From Actinomycetota bacterium (GTDB lineage Bacteria; Actinomycetota; Actinomycetes; Streptosporangiales; Streptosporangiaceae): a stretch of 64,000 nt of DNA. The first letter of the stretch is position 1. Each line of letters starts with the position of its first letter. Under the pieces are notes generated by a model. It ran no database searches. It was not told the DNA's origin and saw only the letters and a list, made by a program, of their open reading frames with translations. Below, piece after piece: positions 9,735 through 26,162 of the stretch. Made by a program: the position numbers and the translations under genes. The stretch covers positions 1-64,000 of the forward strand of contig DAHVAR010000091.1 of assembly GCA_027314515.1 (NCBI GenBank), read 5' to 3'.

Positions 9735-11576
9735 CTGGCGAGCCAGCCTCCGGCCGGCCGGACGTCACCGGACGAGGAGAAGCACCGGCTCACCGCCCTC
9801 GAGGGGCTGGCCGCGCTGTCCCTCGATGCGCTGTCCTCGGTCGCCTACGGCCCGCAGGCCATCATCATCGTGCTGGCGACCGCCGGGGTGGCCGCGTTGC
9901 ACTACACGATGCCAGTGACCCTGGCGATCGTGCTGCTGCTGGTCGTCCTGGTGGTCTCCTACCGCCAGGTCATCGAGGCCTTCCCGAGTGGCGGTGGCGC
10001 CTACGCGGTAGCCAAGGCGCATCTGGGCGTCACACCGAGCCTGGTGGCGGCCGCCTCGCTGGTCGTGGACTACGTGCTGAACGCGGCTGTCGGCGTGTCG
10101 GCTGGCGTCGAGGCCCTCACCTCGGCCTTCCCGGTGCTGTATCCCGACCGGGTGTGGCTGTGCCTGGGCGTGCTCGGCGTGATCACCGCCGCGAACCTGT
10201 GGGGCGTGGCGGAGTCGGCCAGGCTGTTCATCGCGCCGACGATCCTGTTCATCGTAGCGATCTTCACGGTCATCGTCGCTGGCCTGCTTCGCCCGCATCC
10301 GCTGCCGTTTCCCGCCGGATCGGTGACGTCGGCCCCGCTGACGGTGGGCATCCTGCTGCTGCTGAGGGCGTTCGCCTCCGGGTGCTCGGCGCTGACTGGC
10401 GTCGAGGCGATCGCGAACGCGGTGCCGGAGTTCCGTGAGCCGAGGGCGCGTCGCGCCCAGCACACCGAAGTCGGGCTAGGCGTGATCCTCGGCCTGATGC
10501 TGATCGGCATCGCGGCGCTGGCCGACAAGTTCAAGGCCGAGCCGTCGACGACCGTGACCACGCTTGCCCAGCTCACCCAGGGCTCGATCGGCCATAACTT
10601 CTTTTTCTACGCGGTCCAGCTGCTGACCACGGTCCTGCTGGCGCTGGCGGCTAACACCTCCTTCGGCGGACTGCCGGTCCTTGCCTCGCTGCTCGCCTCC
10701 GACAATTTCCTGCCGCACCTGTTCTTCCTGCGGGCGCAGCGACAGGTACACAGGTACGGTGTCGTCGTGCTCGCGGTGGCCGCCGCTGCCCTGCTAGTGG
10801 CCTCGAGCGGCAGCACGCAGGCGCTGATCCCGGTGTTCGCCATCGGGGTGTTCGTCGGCTTCACGCTGTCGCAGGCCGGCATGGTGCGGCACTGGCGGCT
10901 CCAGGGCACGCCGGGCTGGCCGGGCCGGGCGCTCGTCAACGGCGTCGGAGCCGCATTCACCCTCGCGGCGCTTGCCATCGAACTGGTCAGCAAGTTCACC
11001 GAGGGTGCCTGGCTGGTCGTGATCGTCGTACCGCTGCTGGTGCTGATGTTCGCCTGGGTGCACACCGTCTATACGCGGATGGGCCGTGCGCTGGAGCTCG
11101 GTGATCTGCCGCGACCACCCGAACGCCGGACGTCGACGGTCGTCGTGCCGGTTGCAGTTATGTCGAGGCTGGTCAGGGAGGGCATCTCGGCTGCGCTGTC
11201 GCTCGGTGACGAGGTCATAGCGGTCACCATCTGCTTCGACGATCCGGCCGAGCAGGCAGTCAGCGAGAACCTGCGCGCGCAGTGGCAGCGGTGGGATCCG
11301 GGCGTCCCGCTGGTGACGCTGCACAGCAGCCACCGGTCGCTCGGCGAGCCGCTCGTCGCCTACCTGCGCGAGCTGGAGCGAACCTATACCCACGATCAGC
11401 TCGTCGTGCTGATCCCGGAGGTCCAGCAGGCCCGCCCCTGGCAGCGCATCCTGCATAACCAGCGGGGCTTCGCGCTGGAGCAGGCGATTCAGCACAGCGG
11501 CGTGAACGTGGTGATCTGCCGCCTCAGGTACCGGCTGTCGGCGGTGGCCGGTCAGCTACCGTCCGGGCCGCCCTGA
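9735..11576 (+). CDS. kimA: KimA-like APC-superfamily potassium importer
   Basis: About 613 residues if started at CTG 9735; the track's GTG 9870 would delete half of helix 1. Reading upstream in frame gives LTALEGLAALSLDALSSVAYG, which matches the N-terminus of Bacillus subtilis KimA (YdaO) as I recall it. Other shared blocks are SYRQVIEAFPSGGGAYAVAK, SGCSALTGVEAIANAVPEF and, in the cytoplasmic domain, VTLHSSHRSLGEPLVAYL and RILHNQRGFAL. B. subtilis KimA is a 607-residue, high-affinity K+/H+ symporter inhibited by c-di-AMP. The location beside a full Kdp operon supports potassium transport. No ATG, GTG or TTG is available in frame between the TGA at 9714 and 9870. It overlaps kdpE by 25 bases at the 3' ends. 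Confidence 0.85.
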   Translation: MASQPPAGRTSPDEEKHRLTALEGLAALSLDALSSVAYGPQAIIIVLATAGVAALHYTMPVTLAIVLLLVVLVVSYRQVIEAFPSGGGAYAVAKAHLGVTPSLVAAASLVVDYVLNAAVGVSAGVEALTSAFPVLYPDRVWLCLGVLGVITAANLWGVAESARLFIAPTILFIVAIFTVIVAGLLRPHPLPFPAGSVTSAPLTVGILLLLRAFASGCSALTGVEAIANAVPEFREPRARRAQHTEVGLGVILGLMLIGIAALADKFKAEPSTTVTTLAQLTQGSIGHNFFFYAVQLLTTVLLALAANTSFGGLPVLASLLASDNFLPHLFFLRAQRQVHRYGVVVLAVAAAALLVASSGSTQALIPVFAIGVFVGFTLSQAGMVRHWRLQGTPGWPGRALVNGVGAAFTLAALAIELVSKFTEGAWLVVIVVPLLVLMFAWVHTVYTRMGRALELGDLPRPPERRTSTVVVPVAVMSRLVREGISAALSLGDEVIAVTICFDDPAEQAVSENLRAQWQRWDPGVPLVTLHSSHRSLGEPLVAYLRELERTYTHDQLVVLIPEVQQARPWQRILHNQRGFALEQAIQHSGVNVVICRLRYRLSAVAGQLPSGPP

Positions 11577-12271
11577 TAGCGGTACCCCATGCCGGGCTCC
11601 GTCAGCAGCCACCGCGGCCTGGCCGGATCAGGCTCGAGCTTGCGGCGCAACTGGGCCATGTAGAGGCGCAGGTTGCCGGTGGCATCGGCGTAGCCAGGTC
11701 CCCAGACCTCGGCCAGCAGTTGCTGCTGGCTCAGCAGCTTGCCGGGGTTGCGCAGCAGCACCTCAAGGAGATGCCATTCGGTAGGGGTCAGCCGGATATC
11801 CGCGTTCCCGGCATGTTGCCGGTCGTCGCTGGTCGCGCCGCGCATGACGCGCTTGGCGGCCAGGTCGACGATGAGATCACCCAGCCTGACCTGCGGTACA
11901 TCGTCGTCCGCCGTTGCCCGCCTGGTGACGGCACGCATCCGGGCGAGCAGTTCGTCCATCCCGAACGGCTTGGTGACGTAATCATCAGCGCCGGCGTCCA
12001 GCGCCTCGACCTTGTCGGTGCTGTCGGCCCGGCCGGACAGCACGATGATCGGCGCGTCGCTCCAGCCGCGCAGGCCGTGGATGACCTCGACGCCGTCCAG
12101 GTCGGGCAGGCCGAGGTCAAGGATGACCAGGTCGGGCCGGTGGCGCGCGGCGAGTTCCAGGGCCTCGCCCGCGGTCCCCGCGGTGTGCACCTCGTACTGG
12201 CGGACGCGCAGGTTGATCCGCAGCGCGCGGATGATCTGCGGCTCGTCATCGATCACCAGAACGCTCGTCAC
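11552..12271 (-). CDS. kdpE: KdpE-like response regulator (distal copy)
   Basis: 239-residue OmpR/PhoB-type regulator. The receiver domain (residues 1-120) has the acidic pair in VIDDEPQ, the phospho-acceptor Asp in VILDLGLPDLDG, and Lys in DYVTKPFG. The C-terminal winged helix runs from about 140 (LTPTEWHLLEVLLRNPGKLLS, ending EPGMGYRY). It follows kdpD by 46 bases on the same strand, the classical kdpD-kdpE order. Its winged-helix is equivalent to, but clearly different from, that of the regulator at 14973. It is the last gene of the long kdp transcript and converges on the KimA-like gene. Confidence 0.9.
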   Translation of the reverse strand: MTSVLVIDDEPQIIRALRINLRVRQYEVHTAGTAGEALELAARHRPDLVILDLGLPDLDGVEVIHGLRGWSDAPIIVLSGRADSTDKVEALDAGADDYVTKPFGMDELLARMRAVTRRATADDDVPQVRLGDLIVDLAAKRVMRGATSDDRQHAGNADIRLTPTEWHLLEVLLRNPGKLLSQQQLLAEVWGPGYADATGNLRLYMAQLRRKLEPDPARPRWLLTEPGMGYRYQGGPDGS

Positions 12272-12317: not shown

Positions 12318-14966
12318 CTACGCCGTGCCGGCGTCGCGGTCGCTGCTGATCGCGAGCGCTTGCGACGGCGCCGGAACGGCCGGCAGCGACAGCGTCATGG
12401 TCAGCCCACCGCCCGGCGTCTCCTCGGGCTCCAGAGTGCCGCCCATCGCTTCGGTCAGGCCGCGGGACAGCGCCAGCCCGAGGCCGACCCCGGTGGTGTT
12501 GTCGGTATCGCCGAGCCGCTGGAAGGGCACGAACATCTGATCCCTGTGCTCCTGCGGGATGCCGGGACCGCAGTCGATCACCCGCAGTTCCACCCGGTCT
12601 TGCAGCGCGCTGCCGGACAGCGTCGGCGGGACATCTGACGGCGAGTACCGCAGCGCGTTCGCCGTCAGGTTCGCGATCACCCGCTCCAGGATGCCCGGGT
12701 CCACCGCCACCTCCGGCAGATCGTCCGGAATGCTGACATTCACCGCCTGCCCGGCCGGCCCGAGGTCGTCCAGCGACCGGGCGACGATCTCGGCCAGGTC
12801 AGCGGGCCGCGGGAAGACCGCGAGCGCGCCGGCTTGCAGCCTGCTCATATCGAGCAGGTTGTCGACGAGCCGGGCCAGCCGGTCCAGCGACTCGTCCGCG
12901 GTGGCCAGCAACTCGTCGTGGTCCTCGGCGTCCCACTCGATGTCACGTGATCGCAGGCTGGTGACCGCGGCCTTGGCAGACGCCAGCGGGGTGCGCAGGT
13001 CATGGCTGACCGCCGCGAGCAGCGCGGTGCGCACCCGGTCGGCCTCCGCTATCGGCCGGGCAGCCTCGGCAGCGGCGGCGAGGCGGCCCTGCTCGAGAGC
13101 CACCGCAGCGTAGGCGGCGAAGGCGCCGAGCACCCGCCGGTCGGTGGCTGGCAGCGGCCGGCCGCGCAGCGCCAGTACCAGGCCGTCGCCGGCCGGCATC
13201 TCGACATCGGCTTCCTCTGGGCGGCTGACCGGAGACTCGCCCGAGGAGCCCACCGCGGTCCACCGGCTGGCGATCCCCGCCTGCGGCGACTCGGTGCGCG
13301 GACCGGCCAGCTCGAGCAGCGTCACCGAGTCCATCCCGAACGCCTCGCGGACCCGGTCCAGGACCGCCGGGAGCGACCGCTGACCGCGCAGCACGCTGCC
13401 GGCGGTGGTCACCAGCAGCTCCGACTCCGCGCCCGCCCGGGCAGCTTGCTTGGTGCGCCGGGCCGCGGCATCGACCACTGAGCTCACCGTGAGGCCCACG
13501 GCGACGAAGATGGCGAGCGCCAGGGCGTTGTTGGCCTGCGCGATCGTCCATTTATGGACCGGCGGGGTGAAGAAGTAATTCAGCAGCAGCGATCCGGCGA
13601 CCGCGGCGAGCACGGCCGGGATGAAGCCGCCGACCAGGGCCACTACGATCACGCCAGCCAGGAAAACGAGCATGTCGCTGGTCAGGTTGATGCTCGCGTG
13701 CACGGTGGCCAGCACCAGCGACAGCAGCGGCATCAGCGCCACCGCCAGCGCATAGCCGGCCAGCTGGCGGCGCAGGGTCAGGCCGCCCGCCGCTCGCGGC
13801 AGCCCCCGGCCCCGGCCGGCATAGGAGTGCGTGACCATGTGCACGTCGATGTCACCGGACTCGCGTACCGTCCGGTTGCTGACGCCCGGTCCGGTCAGCA
13901 GCGAGGACAGCCAGCCGCGACGGCTGACGCCAAGCACCAGCTGGGTTGCGTTCTCCGCCCTGGCGAAGGCCAGCAGCGCATCCGGCACGTTGTCGCCGAC
14001 CACCTGGTGGTAGCTGCCGCCCAGATCCTCGACCAGCCGTCGCTGGGTGGCGAGGGCAGCCGGACTCGACCCGCCGGTCCCGTCCGACTGGGTCACATGC
14101 ACGGCCAGCAGGTCCCGGCCGGGCGACCGCGCGGCGATCCTGGCCGCCCGCCTGATCAGCGTCTCGCCTTCCGGGCCGCCGGTCAGCGCCACGACCACCC
14201 GTTCCCTGGCCTCCCAGGTAGCGCGGATGTCATGCGCTTCCCGGTAGCGCTGCAGGCCCTCGTCGACCTTGTCGGCGAGCCAGAGCAGCGCGAGTTCCCG
14301 CAGCGCGGACAGGTTGCCGATGCGGAAGTAATTGGTCAGCGCGGCATCGATCTTCCCGGCCTGGTAGATGTTGCCGTGCGCCATCCGGCGGCGCAGCGCC
14401 TCCGGGGTCATGTCGACGAGTTCGACCTGGTCGGCTGCCCGCACGATGGCATCGGGAACGGTCTCCCGCTGCGGCACGCCGGTGATCTTCTCGACCACGT
14501 CGTTGAGCGACTCCAGGTGCTGGATGTTCACGTTGGAGATCACGTCGATGCCCGCGTCGAGCATTTCCCGGACGTCCTGCCAGCGCTTGGCGTTGCGGGA
14601 GCCGGGAACGTTGGTGTGCGCGAACTCGTCGACCAGCGCTACGTCAGGCTGCCGCGCGAGTACGGCATCGAGGTCCAGCTCCTCGAAGAAGGTGCCCCGG
14701 TAGGGCATGCGCACCCGCGGGACCACCTCGAGGTCGCCGACCTGCTCGGCGGTGTGCAGCCGCCCGTGCGTCTCGACGAACGCGACGACCACGTCGGTGC
14801 CGCGTTCCCGGCGGCGGTGGCCCTCGTTGAGCATGGCGAACGTCTTGCCAACGCCGGCGGCTGAGCCGAGATAGATCCTCAGCTGGCCCCGGCCAGCCGG
14901 TGACCTGGTTGCCCTGACGTCCGCCAGGCGGTCGGTACTCATCGACTGTGCTGCCTCGTAGACCAT
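12318..14966 (-). CDS. kdpD: Sensor histidine kinase KdpD
   Basis: 882-residue osmosensitive potassium-sensor kinase. Domains in order: KdpD N-terminal domain with Walker A (GSAAGVGKT, about residues 34-42), universal-stress-like domain (about 240-370), DUF4118 four-helix membrane domain (about 390-500), GAF-like region, HisKA with the phospho-acceptor His in SHDLRTPLA, and HATPase (N box NLTANALRYSP, G boxes DCGPGIP and TGVGLGLAL). All kinase boxes are intact. Start is either ATG 14966 or ATG 14942. It lies six bases after the proximal response regulator. It would phosphorylate one or both neighbouring KdpE-like proteins when potassium is limiting. Confidence 0.95.
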   Translation of the reverse strand: MVYEAAQSMSTDRLADVRATRSPAGRGQLRIYLGSAAGVGKTFAMLNEGHRRRERGTDVVVAFVETHGRLHTAEQVGDLEVVPRVRMPYRGTFFEELDLDAVLARQPDVALVDEFAHTNVPGSRNAKRWQDVREMLDAGIDVISNVNIQHLESLNDVVEKITGVPQRETVPDAIVRAADQVELVDMTPEALRRRMAHGNIYQAGKIDAALTNYFRIGNLSALRELALLWLADKVDEGLQRYREAHDIRATWEARERVVVALTGGPEGETLIRRAARIAARSPGRDLLAVHVTQSDGTGGSSPAALATQRRLVEDLGGSYHQVVGDNVPDALLAFARAENATQLVLGVSRRGWLSSLLTGPGVSNRTVRESGDIDVHMVTHSYAGRGRGLPRAAGGLTLRRQLAGYALAVALMPLLSLVLATVHASINLTSDMLVFLAGVIVVALVGGFIPAVLAAVAGSLLLNYFFTPPVHKWTIAQANNALALAIFVAVGLTVSSVVDAAARRTKQAARAGAESELLVTTAGSVLRGQRSLPAVLDRVREAFGMDSVTLLELAGPRTESPQAGIASRWTAVGSSGESPVSRPEEADVEMPAGDGLVLALRGRPLPATDRRVLGAFAAYAAVALEQGRLAAAAEAARPIAEADRVRTALLAAVSHDLRTPLASAKAAVTSLRSRDIEWDAEDHDELLATADESLDRLARLVDNLLDMSRLQAGALAVFPRPADLAEIVARSLDDLGPAGQAVNVSIPDDLPEVAVDPGILERVIANLTANALRYSPSDVPPTLSGSALQDRVELRVIDCGPGIPQEHRDQMFVPFQRLGDTDNTTGVGLGLALSRGLTEAMGGTLEPEETPGGGLTMTLSLPAVPAPSQALAISSDRDAGTA

Positions 14967-14972
14967 GTCGCC

Positions 14973-15660
<688 letters not shown>

Positions 15661-15683
<23 letters not shown>

Positions 15684-16290
15684 GGGCCCGGTTCAGTAGC
15701 AGCACGTTCACCACCGGCTCACCGAGGAACCCGAGCGTGCGGCCCGTGGTGTACTCCCTGACCAGGGCCTTGACCTGCGCCGGGCTGACGTGCCGGGCGG
15801 CGGCCACCCGGTCCACCTGGATCGCCGCATTCGCCGGCGAGATGTCGGGGTCCAGGCCGGAGCCGGAGGCGGTGACCGCGTCCGGCGGGATCTTCGAGAC
15901 CGGCACGTGGTCGAACGCGGACACCTGCCTTTGCCGTTTCTTGATCTCGGCGATCAGCTTCGGGTTGCTCGGTCCGAGGTTCGACGCGCCGGAGTACCGG
16001 GGATCGCAGCCGTAGTCGTTGCTGGCGCCGCTGGTCGCCGCGGACGGCCGCGGCTGGAAGTACTGCGGCAGCGGGTTCCCGTTGGCGCTCCGGAACTCCT
16101 GGCACAGCAGGCTCGATCCGATAATCCTGCCGTGATAGGTAACCAGCGACCCGTTCGCCTTGTCGTGGAACGCGATCTGCGCCACCGCGAGCATGGCCAG
16201 CGGGTAGATGATGCCGGTGAGCACGGTGAAGACCACGATGCCGCGCAGTGCGGCGATGTGCTGGCGGACGTAGCCGGGAAGGCGGTTCAC
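15661..16290 (-). CDS. kdpC: Potassium-transporting ATPase subunit KdpC
   Basis: About 209 residues from GTG 16290; the longer track start (16389) runs into kdpB and gives non-homologous sequence. The GTG follows AGGTGAG at normal spacing, eight bases after the kdpB stop. One N-terminal membrane helix (GIVVFTVLTGIIYPLAMLAV) precedes an exported domain with the conserved FRSANGNPLPQYFQPRPSA, SNLGPSN and ASGSGLDPDISPANA motifs and the C-terminal ALVREYTTGRTLGFLGEPVVNVLLLN. KdpC stabilises the KdpFABC complex and affects ATP affinity. Confidence 0.95.
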
Positions 16291-16298
16291 TTGTCTTC

Positions 16299-18413
<2,115 letters not shown>

Positions 18414-18414
18414 C

Positions 18415-20085
18415 TCAGTGCAGTCCTTCTGCGAACGGGCCGAGGGCGAGGGCGGGGAAGTAAGTGAGGCCGATGAGCACGAGGATCACGCCGATGAGCA
18501 TGCCGACGAACAGCGGCTTGTGGGTCTCCAGCGTGCCCGCGCTGGCCGGCACGGGCTGCTGCCTGGCCAGCGATCCGCCCAGGCCAAGCGCGAAGATCAT
18601 AGGGGCGAACCTGGCCACCAGCATGACGATCCCGCCCACCGTGTTGTACCAGTAGGTGTTGGTGGCCAGGCCGGCGAAAGCCGAGCCGTTGTTGTTCGCC
18701 ATCGAGGTGAACGCGTAGAGGATCTCGGTCAGCCCGTGCGGGCCCGGGTTCAGAATGGATGCCCGCGGGATTCTCAGCCCGATGGACAAGCCCGTCCCGG
18801 CCAGCACGGTCGCCGGGGTCGTGAGGAAGTACAACGCCGCGTACTTCATCTCGGCCGGGCGGATCTTCTTGCCGATGTACTCCGGCGTCCGGCCGACCAT
18901 CAGGCCGCCGACGAATACCGTGACGATGGCCAGCACGAGCATGCCGTACAGGCCCGCGCCGACGCCGCCCGGCACGACCTCGCCGAGCGCCATGTCGGCC
19001 AGCGTGATCCCGCCGCCGAACGGTGTCAGCGAATCGTGGGAGCAGTTGACCGCGCCGGTGGAGGTGACCGTGGTCGACGCCGCGAACAGCGAGCAGCCGG
19101 CGGTGCCGAACCTCGTCTCCACGCCCTCCGTCGCGCCGTGGGCGACCTGGGCCGCGGTCGCTCCGCCGACGCTGTAGTGCGACTCGAAGAAGCTGATCCC
19201 GCCGACCGCGGCGAGCCAGAGAACCACCATGACAGCGAGCAGCGCGAACCCCTGCCGCGTGTCCTTCACCATCTTGCCGAAGGTCCGGGTCAGGGCGAAC
19301 GGGGTCACCAGGATCAGGAAGATCTCGAACCAGTTGGTGAACGGGCTTGGGTTCTCGAACGGGTGGGCGGAGTTGGCGTTGAAGAAGCCGCCGCCGTTGT
19401 TACCCGCCTGTTTGATGACCTCCTGGGAGGCCACCGGGCCGCCGGGGATGGTCTGGTGCGCGCCGGACAGGGTAGTCACGGTGTGGTAGCTGGCAATGTT
19501 GTCGATGACCCCGCCGGCCATCAGGATGATCCCGCCGATCACCGCGAGCGGGATCAGGTACCTGATGGTGATCCGCGTGGTGTCCACCCAGAAGTTGCCG
19601 AGCCGGTCGGTCTTGGACCGCATGAACCCGCGAACCAGTGCGATGGCCACCACGATGCCGACAGCCGCGGACATGAAGTTCTGCACGGCCAGGCCCGACA
19701 TCTGGGTCAGGTAGCCCATGGTCGACTCGCCGGAATAGTTCTGCCAGTTCGTGTTCGTGACGAACGAGGCCGCGGTGTTCCACGCCAGCGCCGGCGGCAC
19801 GTTCTTCATGCCCTCCGACAGCAGCAGGTAGCTCTGCAGCCGCTCGATGCCGTACAGGAACAGCACGCTGATCGCCGAGAAGGCCAGCATGCTGCGGGCG
19901 TAAGCACCCCACTTCTGGTCGTTGCCCGGGTTGATCCCGACCAGCCGGTAGATCCAGCGCTCCAGCCGCCAGTGCCTGTCGGTGGTGAAGACGTGCGCCA
20001 TGTAGTTGCCGAGCGGCAGGTAGCACGCGGCCAGCGCAGCGACGAGCAGGCCGAGTTGCAGCCAGCCGGCCGTAGCGGAGCTCAT
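18415..20085 (-). CDS. kdpA: Potassium-transporting ATPase subunit KdpA
   Basis: 556-residue channel-like subunit that binds and translocates K+. The four selectivity-filter-like repeats are recognisable: [48 protein letters not shown] and [11 protein letters not shown]. About ten membrane helices. Its ATG overlaps the kdpF stop by one base (TGATG), so translation is coupled. Length is normal for the family. Confidence 0.97.
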
Positions 20086-20174
20086 CAGAACCTCTCGGGC
20101 TTGACGAGAGCGACGAATAGGTACGCAAGCAGCAGCAAGCCGCAGATCAGGCCGACCCAGTTCTCAGCGCTCAA
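20085..20174 (-). CDS. kdpF: KdpF, 29-residue subunit (absent from ORF track)
   Basis: A TTG-started 30-codon frame directly before kdpA encodes [20 protein letters not shown] followed by ALVKPERF, which is a typical KdpF: one membrane helix with a short basic tail. KdpF stabilises the KdpABC complex and binds at the KdpA/lipid interface. Its stop overlaps the kdpA start (TGATG). Its first 11 bases overlap the end of the upstream microprotein gene, suggesting three-step translational coupling. No strong ribosome-binding site precedes the TTG, which fits coupling. Confidence 0.9.
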
Positions 20175-20253
20175 AGGACTCGATTCCCTTCAGGATGAGC
20201 CAGAGCACGCCGAAGACGACGATGGTCAGGCCGATATAGGCCAGGTCCAGCAT
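20164..20253 (-). CDS. 29-residue membrane microprotein at the head of the kdp operon
   Basis: A 30-codon ATG frame absent from the ORF track encodes MLDLAYIGLTIVVFGVLWLI followed by LKGIESFER. It has a strong ribosome-binding site (AGGAGGGC) seven bases upstream, the best in the operon. It is a single membrane helix of KdpF-like length and charge layout (short acidic N-terminus, helix, basic/acidic tail) but a different sequence. It is the first gene of the kdp transcript and overlaps kdpF by 11 bases. A second KdpF-like subunit or a leader-type regulatory peptide are both possible; I recall no named family. Confidence 0.75.
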   Translation of the reverse strand: MLDLAYIGLTIVVFGVLWLILKGIESFER

Positions 20254-20315
20254 GGAGCCCTCCTAGGCTTCGCCCGTTCCGAGCCAGTGAACTGCCTTGA
20301 GGAGGGCACCTAGCC

Positions 20316-20358
20316 GTTCCAAACGGCACCCATGCGGGCCGGATGCGGTTCCTAACGG
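20316..20358. promoter_or_regulatory. Two GTTCCWAACGG direct repeats, candidate KdpE sites
   Basis: GTTCCAAACGG (20316-20326) and GTTCCTAACGG (20348-20358) are direct repeats 32 bp apart, which is three helical turns, 63-105 bp upstream of the first kdp-operon ORF. The first copy is also part of a perfect 6-bp inverted repeat (GCCGTT/AACGGC). Same-face direct repeats are the usual binding mode of OmpR-class regulators. KdpE binding is inferred. Confidence 0.5.
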
Positions 20359-20436
20359 AATCCATGCACGGCGCTGGGGACTGCGATACCAACGGCGGTG
20401 CGCCGGCCGTCGTCGGATCTCCGGAGGCAGCAGAAA

Positions 20437-20462
20437 GCGGGGCCGCCGGATGGCGGCCCCGC
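20437..20462 (-). terminator. Rho-independent terminator after aminotransferase gene
   Basis: A perfect 11-bp stem (GCGGGGCCGCC / GGCGGCCCCGC) with a 4-base loop lies 20 bases past the stop of the aminotransferase gene. On the minus strand it is followed by TTTCTG. It insulates the kdp promoter from upstream transcription. Confidence 0.75.
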
Positions 20463-20481: not shown

Positions 20482-21873
20482 TCAGGCGGCGAGATCGTCC
20501 AGGCCGCTGAGGTCGGCCAGGATCGCACCGAACCTGGCCAGCGCGGCGGCGATCCACGGCAGCCGCAGCGGATCGGCCGCCGCCAGCGCCTGCTCGCGCT
20601 CGGCGTCGGTGTCGCCGTACAGCATGCTGGTGGCAAGCCGCAGCCGCAGGCAGGACGGGCTCTCGCCAAATGCGCTGCCCGGCAGCGTGCCGGCCCCGTA
20701 CCGGTCCAGTAGCAGGGCGGCGAGGTCATCGCCAGTCCGGACGCCGAACCTGGCCAGCAACTGGTCCCGCCACGGTGCGAAGTCCGGGTACAGGTAGAAC
20801 GCGGCCTGGGGCGGCGCGACGTCAAGCCCGGCGGCGGTGCAGCGCCGGGCCGCCTCGCGGCACACGGCGGCGTGCAGCGCGCGGCTGCGGTGCACGCGAT
20901 CGGCCAGGTCGGCTGGCTCGTCCATGGCCACGGCCGCCGCCTCCTGCATCGGGCCAGCGGCAGCCGACCAGATCTCGCTGGCGATGCCCAGCAGCCGGGC
21001 CCGCAGCGCCGAACCGGCCGCGCCGTCGGGCATGCGCGCTACCCCGATCCGCCAGCCGCCGGCGGCCAGGTTCTTGCTGAGTGAGGTCGTGACTATCGTC
21101 CGGTCCGGCGCGACCACAGCCGGGCTGAGGAACGGCAGGTCCGGGTCATGCACCAGATCCCGGTAGATCTCGTCGCTGATGATGAGCAGCCCGTGCCGCT
21201 CGGCAACCTCGCATACCGCGCGAACGGCGTCCGGACTGGCAAGCCGGCCGGTCGGGTTGTCCGGCAGGGTCATGAGCACGGCACCGATTGGCCGGTCGCC
21301 GTGACGCCGGCTGCGGACGGCGGCCTCGAGCGCGTCCGGGTCGCAGACCCCGCCCTCGCCGGCAACGGCGGGCACGAACTGCGGGGTGACGTCGGCCAGC
21401 GTGGCCTGAGCCGCGTAACTGACCCAGCTGGGCCGGGGCAGCGCGACGCTGGTGCCCAGCGCCAGCATCGTGCCGAACAACAGCGCCTTGCTGCCGGGGC
21501 CGGACACGACTGCCTCGGGCGCGGTCGGCAGCGACCGCCGGGACCAGTAGCCGGCTGCCGCCGCTCGCAGCCGCTGCGACCCGGCGACCGGGCCGTAGCC
21601 GCCGCGCCCGGCAGCGGCGGCCAGTTCTGCGATCAGCCGCGGATGGAGCGGGAGTCCGGCTTCGCCGAAGGCCAGCGGCAGTACCTGCTCGCCGCGCTGG
21701 CGGCGGCGCTCGAGTGCCTCATTGGCGGCGAGCGTGGCGGACACCGGGATGTTGGCGCGGCGGGCAGCCAGCTGGCCGGCGAAGGCCGGCGGCCCGGCGA
21801 CGCCCGCACCGGGGGAGTGCGGAGTCCGGCTGGAGATCGGTTCGGTCATGGCGGCTGGGCCAGCCCATGGCAT
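20482..21873 (-). CDS. Class I/II PLP-dependent aminotransferase
   Basis: 463-residue fold-type I aminotransferase. PLP Lys is in TSLSKNLAAGGWRIG; other signatures are GYGPVAGSQRLR, LPDNPTGR and IISDEIYRDL. Start ATG 21873 has AGGAG eight bases upstream, so the eight-residue extension before MTEPIS is probably real. The gene is divergent from the LysR gene at 22023 (149-bp gap), suggesting LysR control. Substrate unknown; general aspartate-aminotransferase-like fold. Confidence 0.87.
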   Translation of the reverse strand: MPWAGPAAMTEPISSRTPHSPGAGVAGPPAFAGQLAARRANIPVSATLAANEALERRRQRGEQVLPLAFGEAGLPLHPRLIAELAAAAGRGGYGPVAGSQRLRAAAAGYWSRRSLPTAPEAVVSGPGSKALLFGTMLALGTSVALPRPSWVSYAAQATLADVTPQFVPAVAGEGGVCDPDALEAAVRSRRHGDRPIGAVLMTLPDNPTGRLASPDAVRAVCEVAERHGLLIISDEIYRDLVHDPDLPFLSPAVVAPDRTIVTTSLSKNLAAGGWRIGVARMPDGAAGSALRARLLGIASEIWSAAAGPMQEAAAVAMDEPADLADRVHRSRALHAAVCREAARRCTAAGLDVAPPQAAFYLYPDFAPWRDQLLARFGVRTGDDLAALLLDRYGAGTLPGSAFGESPSCLRLRLATSMLYGDTDAEREQALAAADPLRLPWIAAALARFGAILADLSGLDDLAA

Positions 21874-24112: not shown

Positions 24113-25768
24113 TTACTGCGGCGGCGCCGCGGCCAGCGTCACCTTGCGGGTCACGGTCTGGCCCGCGGGAGTCACCCACGTGAGCCTCACCGTGGCGCCG
24201 CTGTGCACGCCCTGCAGGATGTTCATCAGCGAGGCTGGCGACGACACCGGCTGGTTGTTCACCCTGGTGATGACGTCGCCGGCATTGATGCCCGCCGCGG
24301 AGGCCGGCGTCTGGCAGAGCGAGCCGAGTATCAGCGTGCCCGAACTGACCGGCGCGATCCTGGTGGGCAGGCCGGCCTGTTGATCGTTTTGCACGCAGCC
24401 GCCGGGCGCCGGGGTCACCTGACCGCCCTGGCCGGTCACGTCCTGCACCTGCTGCTGGAGCTGAGCTCGCGGACTCGCCGAGGTGCTCTGGGTGCCGTTT
24501 TTCCCGCTCGGCACGAGCACGCCGACGAAGCCCGAACTGCCGATCCGGATGCCCACGGCTGGGTGCCCGGCGATGATCCGCCGGGCGAGAGCGAGAGCCC
24601 GGTTGATCGGGATCGCGAAACCTACGTCCTGGCCGGAGTTGGCGGTGCTGTTCACGCTCGCTGCGGTGTCCATGCCGATGACCTTGCCGTCGGTGCTCAC
24701 TAGCGGGCCGCCGGAGTCGCCCGGAATGATCTGCGCATTGGTCTGCAGCATGCCGGTGAGGGTCTCAGCCGCTTCACCGCTGCCGTTGTCGCTTGCGGTG
24801 ATGGTCTGGTTGAGGTTGGTGATGGTGCCGGCCACGTAGCTGATCTTGCCGGTGCCATTCGCGTTGCCCATGCCGACGACCTGATCGCCGATCTTGACCG
24901 ACGAGGAGTCGCCGATCGGCACCGTCGGCAGGCCGGACGCTCCCACTAGCTGGATGACGGCGACGTCGGAGCCCTTGTCGTAGCCGAGCCACCGGGCCGT
25001 GTACTGCCGTCCAGTCGTCACTACCGTCGCGGTGAGGCCGGTCGTTCCGTTGATGACGTGATTGTTGGTCAGGACCAAGCCAGAGTGGCTGATGATCATG
25101 CCAGTGGCGGCGGCGCCCATGCCCTGGCCGTCGTACTGCAGGTTGCTCGTGATGACTACCAGCCCGGGCGTGACAGCGTTGCGGAGCCGCCGCATGGTGC
25201 CCTGTGAGATCGCTCCGGAGTTGCCACTGTTTGAGCTGCCGTTGTTGGCGTTGCCGTTCGTGCTGCCGCCGGGGAAGAGGCTGTTACCCGGCTGGCCGAG
25301 ATTGCCGGAACCGGCACTGCCAGAACTGGCGGCCGGCGGCTGGCTGCCGTCGGCGAACGCAACCACCAGGCTGCCGGCGGTAGCGGCGACGGCAGCAACG
25401 GCAATGTAGGTGATCGCCGCGGTGAGCGCGCGGCGGCGCGGCGGGCGGGGCGGCTGGCCGTAGCCACCGGGTACGCCGTAGTGGCCCGGCGGCTGGCCGT
25501 AGCCACCGGGCTGGCCGTAGCCGGGCTGGCCGTAGCCGGGCGGCGGGTAGCCGATCGGCTGGGTGAAGGCCGGCAACTCGCCGGCGCCGGCCCGGCTGGA
25601 CGCAGCCCGGCTGGACGCATCAGGATTACCTGACTCCCGGGCTGGCCCAAAGTCAGCGGTCTGCCGTGCCTCGCCCGCTTGCGGCTGAATGGACGGATCT
25701 GCGGGGGCCGTCCACGACTCCCAGATGCCAGGCCGCTGGCCGTCGCTGCTCTGCTCGTCCATCTCCAT
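24113..25768 (-). CDS. Membrane-anchored HtrA/DegP-type serine protease with PDZ domain
   Basis: About 551 residues from ATG 25768 (MEMDEQSSDGQ); the track start at 25897 adds 43 unlikely residues. Order: acidic N-terminus, Gly/Tyr/Gln/Pro-rich repeat (YGQPGYGQPGGYGQ), one membrane helix (ITYIAVAAVAATAGSLVVAF), a Gly/Asn/Ser linker, trypsin-like domain and a C-terminal PDZ domain. Catalytic triad: His in VLTNNHVINGT, Asp in GSDVAVIQL, Ser in IPGDSGGPLV. PDZ ends with TVRLTWVTPAGQTVTRKV. It would act outside the membrane in envelope protein quality control. The cytoplasmic repeat tail is typical of actinobacterial PepD-like proteases. Confidence 0.92.
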   Translation of the reverse strand: MEMDEQSSDGQRPGIWESWTAPADPSIQPQAGEARQTADFGPARESGNPDASSRAASSRAGAGELPAFTQPIGYPPPGYGQPGYGQPGGYGQPPGHYGVPGGYGQPPRPPRRRALTAAITYIAVAAVAATAGSLVVAFADGSQPPAASSGSAGSGNLGQPGNSLFPGGSTNGNANNGSSNSGNSGAISQGTMRRLRNAVTPGLVVITSNLQYDGQGMGAAATGMIISHSGLVLTNNHVINGTTGLTATVVTTGRQYTARWLGYDKGSDVAVIQLVGASGLPTVPIGDSSSVKIGDQVVGMGNANGTGKISYVAGTITNLNQTITASDNGSGEAAETLTGMLQTNAQIIPGDSGGPLVSTDGKVIGMDTAASVNSTANSGQDVGFAIPINRALALARRIIAGHPAVGIRIGSSGFVGVLVPSGKNGTQSTSASPRAQLQQQVQDVTGQGGQVTPAPGGCVQNDQQAGLPTRIAPVSSGTLILGSLCQTPASAAGINAGDVITRVNNQPVSSPASLMNILQGVHSGATVRLTWVTPAGQTVTRKVTLAAAPPQ

Positions 25769-26162
25769 CACCCTCTGCCCAGTGTCATGCCAGCCTATGT
25801 CCGGCAGCCCGGGCCGACATCCGTCACCGGACGCAGTCGCTCGCACCCGTCCCGTCCAAGTAAGCACTACCGACCTGGACGTTAGCTGAACGAGCACTGA
25901 GGATCGCCTATCGCGGCGCGGGCTGGAGATGCGTTGCTTGTAGTCGCGCTAGTCGTGGTCCTGCATCAGTGAGTAAGCGGCCGGGGGGCCGCCGAAATTC
26001 CGGCTCAGGCAGCCGAGTGCCGGGAGTAATCTCCGCAAGTCGGGTGCGCTCGTCCCGGGGACGGGTGCGCCACGCTCGGGCGTGAAGGCGATATATCTTG
26101 TCATCTCTGCTGTGGAGATATATCTTGAAGCTGTCACGGACGGCACCACGCAGGAGTTGACA
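25769..26162. other. 394-bp divergent gap with AT-rich direct repeats
   Basis: No convincing gene. The track ORF 25908-26774 (minus) is mostly antisense to the two genes to the right. The right part (26080-26162) is noticeably AT-rich and holds the GATATATCTTG repeats listed separately; the left part probably carries the HtrA-type gene's promoter, but I see no clear -35/-10 pair. Confidence 0.5.
26090..26127. promoter_or_regulatory. GATATATCTTG direct repeat, candidate operator
   Basis: GATATATCTTG occurs at 26090-26100 and 26117-26127, 27 bp apart, just upstream of the membrane-protein gene at 26163. Each copy contains the self-complementary octamer GATATATC. Such AT-rich palindromes are very rare in this sequence and look like operators of a PadR- or GntR-like repressor; the regulator is not identified. 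Confidence 0.5.

Follow-up and report, generated by a model that had tools for sequence, protein, structure and literature searches.

A predicted doubled KdpE operator upstream of the kdp operon in a member of the Streptosporangiaceae

Known KdpE binding sites

The closest described counterparts of the site reported here are the KdpE sites of E. coli and M. smegmatis. In E. coli, KdpE recognizes TTTATA-N5-TTTACA, the two half-sites of which are independent and equal, and residues R193, R200 and T215 of the protein are required for DNA binding (PMC3264566). In case of M. smegmatis, the footprint protects one 18-bp site only, and the footprinted, minimal KdpE sequence CCGTAAAGAAACCATCAAGGCC corresponds to GTAAAG-N5-ATCAAG; its authors treated it as one motif of 22 bp and saw no noticeable resemblance to KdpE sites from elsewhere (PMC5401905). 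Read as two hexamers separated by five nucleotides (6-5-6), the M. smegmatis site is of the same design as the E. coli site. No doubled KdpE sites were found in the open literature, to which the search was confined.

Gene surroundings

The window (the whole stretch of 64,000 nucleotides analysed here) harbours a kdp operon on its minus strand in the order leader micro-ORF, kdpF, kdpA, kdpB, kdpC, KdpE-1, kdpD and KdpE-2:

20164 to 20253, minus strand: leader micro-ORF, the first ORF of the transcript, overlapping kdpF
20085 to 20174, minus strand: kdpF with TTG start (Pfam PF09604, E 2.5e-11)
18415 to 20085, minus strand: kdpA
16299 to 18413, minus strand: kdpB
15661 to 16389, minus strand: kdpC as listed ORF, the real start probably being further in (position and sequence)
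14973 to 15683, minus strand: KdpE-1, OmpR-family response regulator in the kdpC-kdpD interval (recognition helix YLRFHMARLRRKL)
12318 to 14966, minus strand: kdpD (Pfam KdpD, Usp, DUF4118, HisKA, HATPase_c)
11552 to 12271, minus strand: KdpE-2, canonical KdpE (place after kdpD and sequence; recognition helix NLRLYMAQLRRKL)
20437 to 20462, no strand assigned: perfect 11-bp inverted repeat, likely a terminator, behind the upstream aminotransferase-like gene

The aminotransferase-like gene, named from its sequence, is likewise encoded on the minus strand and ends at 20482. As a likely terminator, the inverted repeat would separate the kdp promoter from this gene.

Anatomy of the operator

The first-pass annotation had reported two 11-mers differing by one mismatch and placed 32 bp apart (start to start). 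Both positions were confirmed upon re-reading: GTTCCWAACGG matches exactly at 20316-20326 (GTTCCAAACGG) and 20348-20358 (GTTCCTAACGG) and has no exact match elsewhere in the window. The spacing was described there as three helical turns, which is correct, since with 10.5 bp to the turn it amounts to ~3.05 turns. The repeat is real, but its unit was chosen too short, since the two copies can be aligned along 23 nt (20313-20335 and 20345-20367; 19/23 identity, 32 bp apart). Among dinucleotide-shuffled versions of the intergenic region (227 bp), an equally good 23-nt repeat occurred once per 1000 and a 17/20 match over 20 nt three times, as compared to 279 times for a 10/11 match over 11 nt. Therefore, the longer repeat is convincing, whereas the 11-bp pair alone is within chance, and GTTCCWAACGG was abandoned as unit in favour of the 23-nt copy and the 6-5-6 arrangement contained in it. 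A short palindrome (CCGTTCCAAACGG) in one copy was also discarded, being imperfect in the other copy and lost in relatives.

The kdp (minus) strand reads GCATGG-ATTCC-GTTAGG-N15-GCATGG-GTGCC-GTTTGG. Each 23-nt copy thus has the form GCATGG-N5-GTTWGG, i.e., two 6-bp half-sites at 11-bp pitch, and the two presumed 11-bp repeats are replaced by four tandem half-sites, starting at 20367, 20356, 20335 and 20324 (spaced 11, 21 and 11 bp):

20362 to 20367, minus strand: half-site H1 of the distal site, GCATGG (present in 17/17 pattern-selected close relatives; 97% per position in 29)
20351 to 20356, minus strand: half-site H2 of the distal site, GTTAGG (11 bp from H1; kept in close relatives)
20330 to 20335, minus strand: half-site H3 of the proximal site, GCATGG (32 bp from H1; GCAT in 29/29, spacing fixed)
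20319 to 20324, minus strand: half-site H4 of the proximal site, GTTTGG (in relatives also GCATGG, GCTTGG, GCAAGG or GTCAGG)

H4 is often GCATGG in relatives (L025, L026, L031). In several of them its variants match H1/H3, which shows the half-sites to be direct repeats of one another. The operator spans 20319-20367 and thus precedes the first kdp-operon ORF by about 65-115 bp; its nearest edge is ~65 bp away from the first start codon.

The pair occurs only once in the genome. The 20-mer GCATGGNNNCCGTTNGGAAC has 0-mismatch matches at these two places only in the whole 5.86-Mb genome (~5.9 Mb), and a whole-genome search with the double pattern returned a single place even at 3 mismatches. When the whole window was scanned with a half-site matrix, the pair scored 32.2, followed by 11.7 (an overlapping register) and 10.5.

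Conservation in close relatives

The close set combines two sets and comprises every examined kdp promoter with a KdpA at least ~70% identical (n=29). The promoters of the first set (n=17) were chosen by their match to GCATGG-N5-GTTAGG; all 17 have the proximal GCAT and a spacing of always 32 bp, the 15-bp linker and the flanks being variable. Most promoters of the second set, fetched without the pattern, match it exactly (variants: L151, L152, L154, L155 and L158), and all of them keep the second site at 32 bp except L158 (33 bp). Taken together, the double site is present in 29/29 close promoters (28 at exactly 32 bp, one at 33), the letters of the distal half-sites being kept to 93-100% and the proximal GCAT in all. 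A lack of conservation in orthologous kdp promoters had been named beforehand as an outcome that would refute the first-pass annotation; the sites and their 32-bp spacing are kept, also in the promoters fetched without the pattern, which speaks in its favour. In the window, a 6-5-6 tandem of half-sites occurs twice in front of kdpFABC, and the orthologous promoters retain it.

Conservation in distant Actinobacteria

The distant set consists of 79 nonredundant, nearly all actinobacterial kdp promoters and was scanned with a half-site matrix, the training of which drew in part on top-scoring sites from the set itself and at no point on how they are spaced. In 47 of the 79, the best tandem site has its best partner exactly 32 bp away, compared to a mean of 1.5 at 32 bp and a maximum of 6 at any offset in shuffled promoters; 23/79 were below the pair threshold. 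For promoters assigned to mycobacteria by sequence and context (family f6), the best partner is at 32 bp in 24/30. Self-similarity under a matrix-free 6-5-6 mask likewise peaks at lag 32 (z 6.1 in close, 6.4 in far and 4.9 in mycobacterial promoters), and 6-mer repeats in mycobacteria are strongest at lags 32, 11 and 21. The conservation noted for close relatives therewith reaches Streptosporangiales, Nocardia and mycobacteria. An extension of the double operator to Alphaproteobacteria was discarded, since 24 promoters examined from this group display neither a lag-32 signal nor TTTA-type tandem sites.

The half-site letters form a gradient from GCATGG/GTTAGG (clade of the window) via GTATGG/GTCAAG (other members of the same family) to GTAAAG/GTCAAG and GCTAAG/GTAAGG in mycobacteria and Nocardia. 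The forms GTATGG-N5-GTCAAG and GTAAAG-N5-GTCAAG thereby bridge the half-sites of the window and the footprinted ones of M. smegmatis, which are arranged in the same 6-5-6 direct order upstream of kdpF. The window differs from M. smegmatis by having two sites 32 bp apart, with diverged letters (GCATGG/GTTAGG), in place of one published motif. M. smegmatis was outside the genomes searched; most of the related mycobacterial promoters examined also have a second site. The exact M. smegmatis 22-mer has no match in the 397 mycobacterial genomes searched. In a one-mismatch relative (L244), CGAGTG-N5-GTAAAG is found 32 bp upstream, containing one good half-site only.

The E. coli kdpFABC site (PMC3264566; structures 4KFC, 4KNY) shares the 6-5-6 tandem, the OmpR-family regulator and the upstream position, but its half-sites on the kdp strand are TTTATA/TTTACA, and they come closest to the actinobacterial ones when read from the opposite strand (TGTAAA/TATAAA), so that the polarity of the two kinds of site may be reversed, a reading drawn from two sequences and not relied on here. 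AT-rich TTT half-sites of the E. coli type are absent from the kdp strand of the window. E. coli also differs in having one established site: TTTGCG-N5-TTTGCA, 32 bp further downstream, is a weak 8/12 match within the core promoter and may have arisen by chance.

The same genome contains a second kdp operon (C192), which has no comparable double site; thus, not every kdp operon has the double operator. In this second operon (L142 7072-14605), kdpA and kdpB are separated by a Usp-like gene; the kinase is of the DUF4118/GAF kind and lacks the N-terminal domain of KdpD, and an OmpR-type regulator is oriented divergently. Both kdp operons have a trypsin-like protease nearby, judged from sequence to be of the HtrA type (window 24113-25897, minus strand; L142 5317-6801, plus strand); the two are alike, with proline/glycine-rich N-termini. 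In two other loci, L059 (G025) and L061 (G049), two kdpA genes diverge across ~500-700 bp, and a common promoter region may serve both of the respective kdp operons.

Core promoter

A sigma-70 consensus scan found no promoter and was replaced by detection of a -10-like element in the alignment:

20286 to 20291, minus strand: -10-like hexamer TTCACT (nt 76-81, counting from where the distal site starts)

When promoters are aligned on the double site, T76, T77 and T81 are kept in 97, 90 and 86% of the close and 82, 93 and 75% of the far promoters, respectively. Positions 76-81 read TT[TC][AG][CA]T in both sets and are TANNNT-like (TCTAGCTTT and similar) in mycobacteria; a -35 hexamer is not apparent. 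Taking TTCACT as the -10 element, we infer a transcription start near 20279; the proximal site would then cover roughly -56 to -40, and the distal one -88 to -72. PhoB is an activator standing next to the -35 position, and the predicted layout fits an activator adjoining this position in a PhoB-like manner. The pho box and the PhoP boxes resemble the window in their direct repeats at 11-bp pitch and in the activator site adjoining the -35 position, but differ in half-site sequence and regulon, and a PhoB-type context is missing from the window.

Leader micro-ORF

Preceding and overlapping kdpF, 125 of 141 kdp promoters examined carry a conserved micro-ORF of 27-29 aa with a single membrane span and a consensus of about MADVIFVALTIAxFAxLGLVVKAVERL. 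No Pfam or NCBIfam model matches it. Its divergence at the three codon positions in mycobacteria (0.24/0.12/0.32) indicates that it is coding. The corresponding 120 nt of M. smegmatis have been described as 5'-UTR.

Which regulator reads the operator

KdpE-1 and KdpE-2, which flank kdpD in one operon, are 55% identical; they are probably the "two regulators" meant by the first-pass annotation. KdpE-2 is the counterpart, by position and sequence, of KdpE in other Actinobacteria, and KdpE-1 was detected in some members of the clade of the window only. The equivalents of R193, R200 and T215 of E. coli KdpE are kept in both paralogs, and the operon encodes cognate KdpD/KdpE with an intact winged helix-turn-helix domain. 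Recognition helices and half-sites pair by clade, i.e., NLRLYMAQ with GCATGG/GTTAGG, YLRQY[LM]AQ with GTATGG/GTCAAG, and YLRVYLAQ with GTAAAG/GCTAAG/GTCAAG. This covariation agrees with KdpE as the reader, but comprises three clades and is confounded with phylogeny.

An assignment of the operator to KdpE-1, based on its clade-specific helix, was considered and withdrawn. KdpE-1 as main reader, or a heterotypic array in which each paralog occupies one class of half-sites, would be in line with its location inside the operon, with its diverged helix (FHMAR), present only in the GCATGG/GTTAGG clade, and with the separate supported clades formed by the two paralogs (100/99 and 97/92). However, G085 and G146 lack KdpE-1 between kdpC and kdpD and nevertheless keep the GCATGG-type double operator, as does G210 judged on the fetched stretches, and by inspection the pattern of H4 variants is independent of the presence of KdpE-1. 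A leading or shared role of KdpE-1 is therefore regarded as rather unlikely. Since relatives without KdpE-1 keep the operator, KdpE-2 is the better candidate and the most likely reader.

Alternative explanations

The repeats very probably form the core of a doubled KdpE operator, and binding of KdpE is predicted. The KdpE operator proposed by the first-pass annotation is supported by the conservation and by a half-site geometry equal to that of the E. coli and M. smegmatis sites, and is favoured because the site is unique to kdp, is followed by a -10-like element at fixed distance and belongs to an operon encoding KdpD/KdpE. Since an 11-bp pitch is generic and half-sites alone name no regulator (in case of M. 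tuberculosis PhoP, the protein recognizes 7-bp direct repeats with a 4-bp spacer; PMC4832192), binding of another OmpR-family regulator of the PhoP, MtrA, PhoB or GlnR type instead of KdpE was also weighed. Such a regulator is improbable in view of a site that is unique to kdp in the genome and that matches the M. smegmatis KdpE site in geometry and via bridging sequences, and of kdpD/kdpE in the operon. Moreover, K+ transporter or KdpD-like loci, and not phosphate or cell-wall genes, account for most of the other matches in relatives, contrary to the regulon location expected of a PhoP, MtrA or PhoB box.

Control of kdp by riboswitches exists in some Firmicutes, where a c-di-AMP riboswitch is involved (PMC6488665), and the repeats could accordingly be part of a riboswitch or attenuator in the 5' leader RNA. 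An Rfam search of the leader ruled against this, with no family above threshold (ydaO-type c-di-AMP riboswitch included) and tfoR as sole sub-threshold match (19.5 bits vs a cut-off of 70), which is chance-like. In addition, what is conserved are direct repeats of fixed helical phase located upstream of the -10-like element, rendering an RNA element highly improbable. The remaining explanation, chance similarity or shared noncoding ancestry without function, could appeal to the ordinariness of the 11-bp pair, but is practically negligible given near invariant half-sites amidst varying flanks and spacers and the fixed 32-bp spacing across Actinobacteria.

Proposed function of the doubled operator

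For the doubled KdpE operator, the following course may be envisaged. Under K+ limitation, sensed by KdpD, KdpE would be phosphorylated by KdpD, and the phosphorylated protein, most likely KdpE-2, would fill the four half-sites on one face of the helix as two dimers in tandem. The proximal dimer, positioned just upstream of the -35 position, could recruit RNA polymerase to a promoter without recognisable -35 element, and the distal dimer, three turns upstream, could add cooperativity or gain. In this way, the operator would switch on leader-kdpFABC-kdpE1-kdpD-kdpE2. Sequence, geometry, conservation, uniqueness and gene context of the site are observed here, while binding of KdpE, activation, cooperativity and the mechanism of the second site are parts of this scheme that we infer. 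A function as KdpE operator is in itself ordinary; the doubled architecture at 32 bp appears to be undescribed.

Matches beyond kdp

A loose double pattern (up to 1 mismatch) matched 20 places in 41 genomes, of which 11 coincide with the kdp promoter, as expected; one further match (L270) is also upstream of a kdpA, ~0.7 kb away. The reversed control pattern matched 13 places, so that single non-kdp matches are insignificant by number and were judged by content. In L265-L268, the match is at the start of a gene for a DUF4118 histidine kinase-like protein, followed by an OmpR-type regulator; the kinase domain was confirmed by Pfam in L265, L266 and L267, and a KimA-like gene is divergently oriented in L265 and L266. 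In L269 and L271, double-site matches are located in front of KimA-like genes. Identification as KimA is firm for L269 and L266 (PDB 6s3k; E 4.9e-126 and 6.4e-86, respectively). In the linked regulators the helices are of the VY type (VF in L268), and they go along with half-sites of the type GTTAAG/GTCAAG, which suggests that paralogous K+ circuits share the operator design and differ in its letters. The genome of the window itself has a KimA gene of this kind at C146, with 72% identity, and a less similar one in the window at ~9780-10979 (plus strand), near the kdp operon; no double site was detected in the stretch scanned around the C146 gene.

One may speculate, at about even chances, that a single actinobacterial operator design for K+ limitation, with two KdpE-type tandem sites spaced by exactly 32 bp and held at a fixed distance to the -10 element, serves kdp as well as KimA-type symporters via paralogous KdpD/KdpE-like pairs, with helices and half-sites having changed together, the circuits being insulated from each other and an extra KdpE paralog having joined the operon in the clade of the window. 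According to the sequence comparison, the published actinobacterial KdpE site is usually paired, with rigid 32-bp spacing and rigid distance to the -10 element. The results further point to KdpE paralogs acting on KimA-type transporters and suggest that a conserved membrane micro-ORF lies in what had been presumed to be the 5'-UTR of kdpF.
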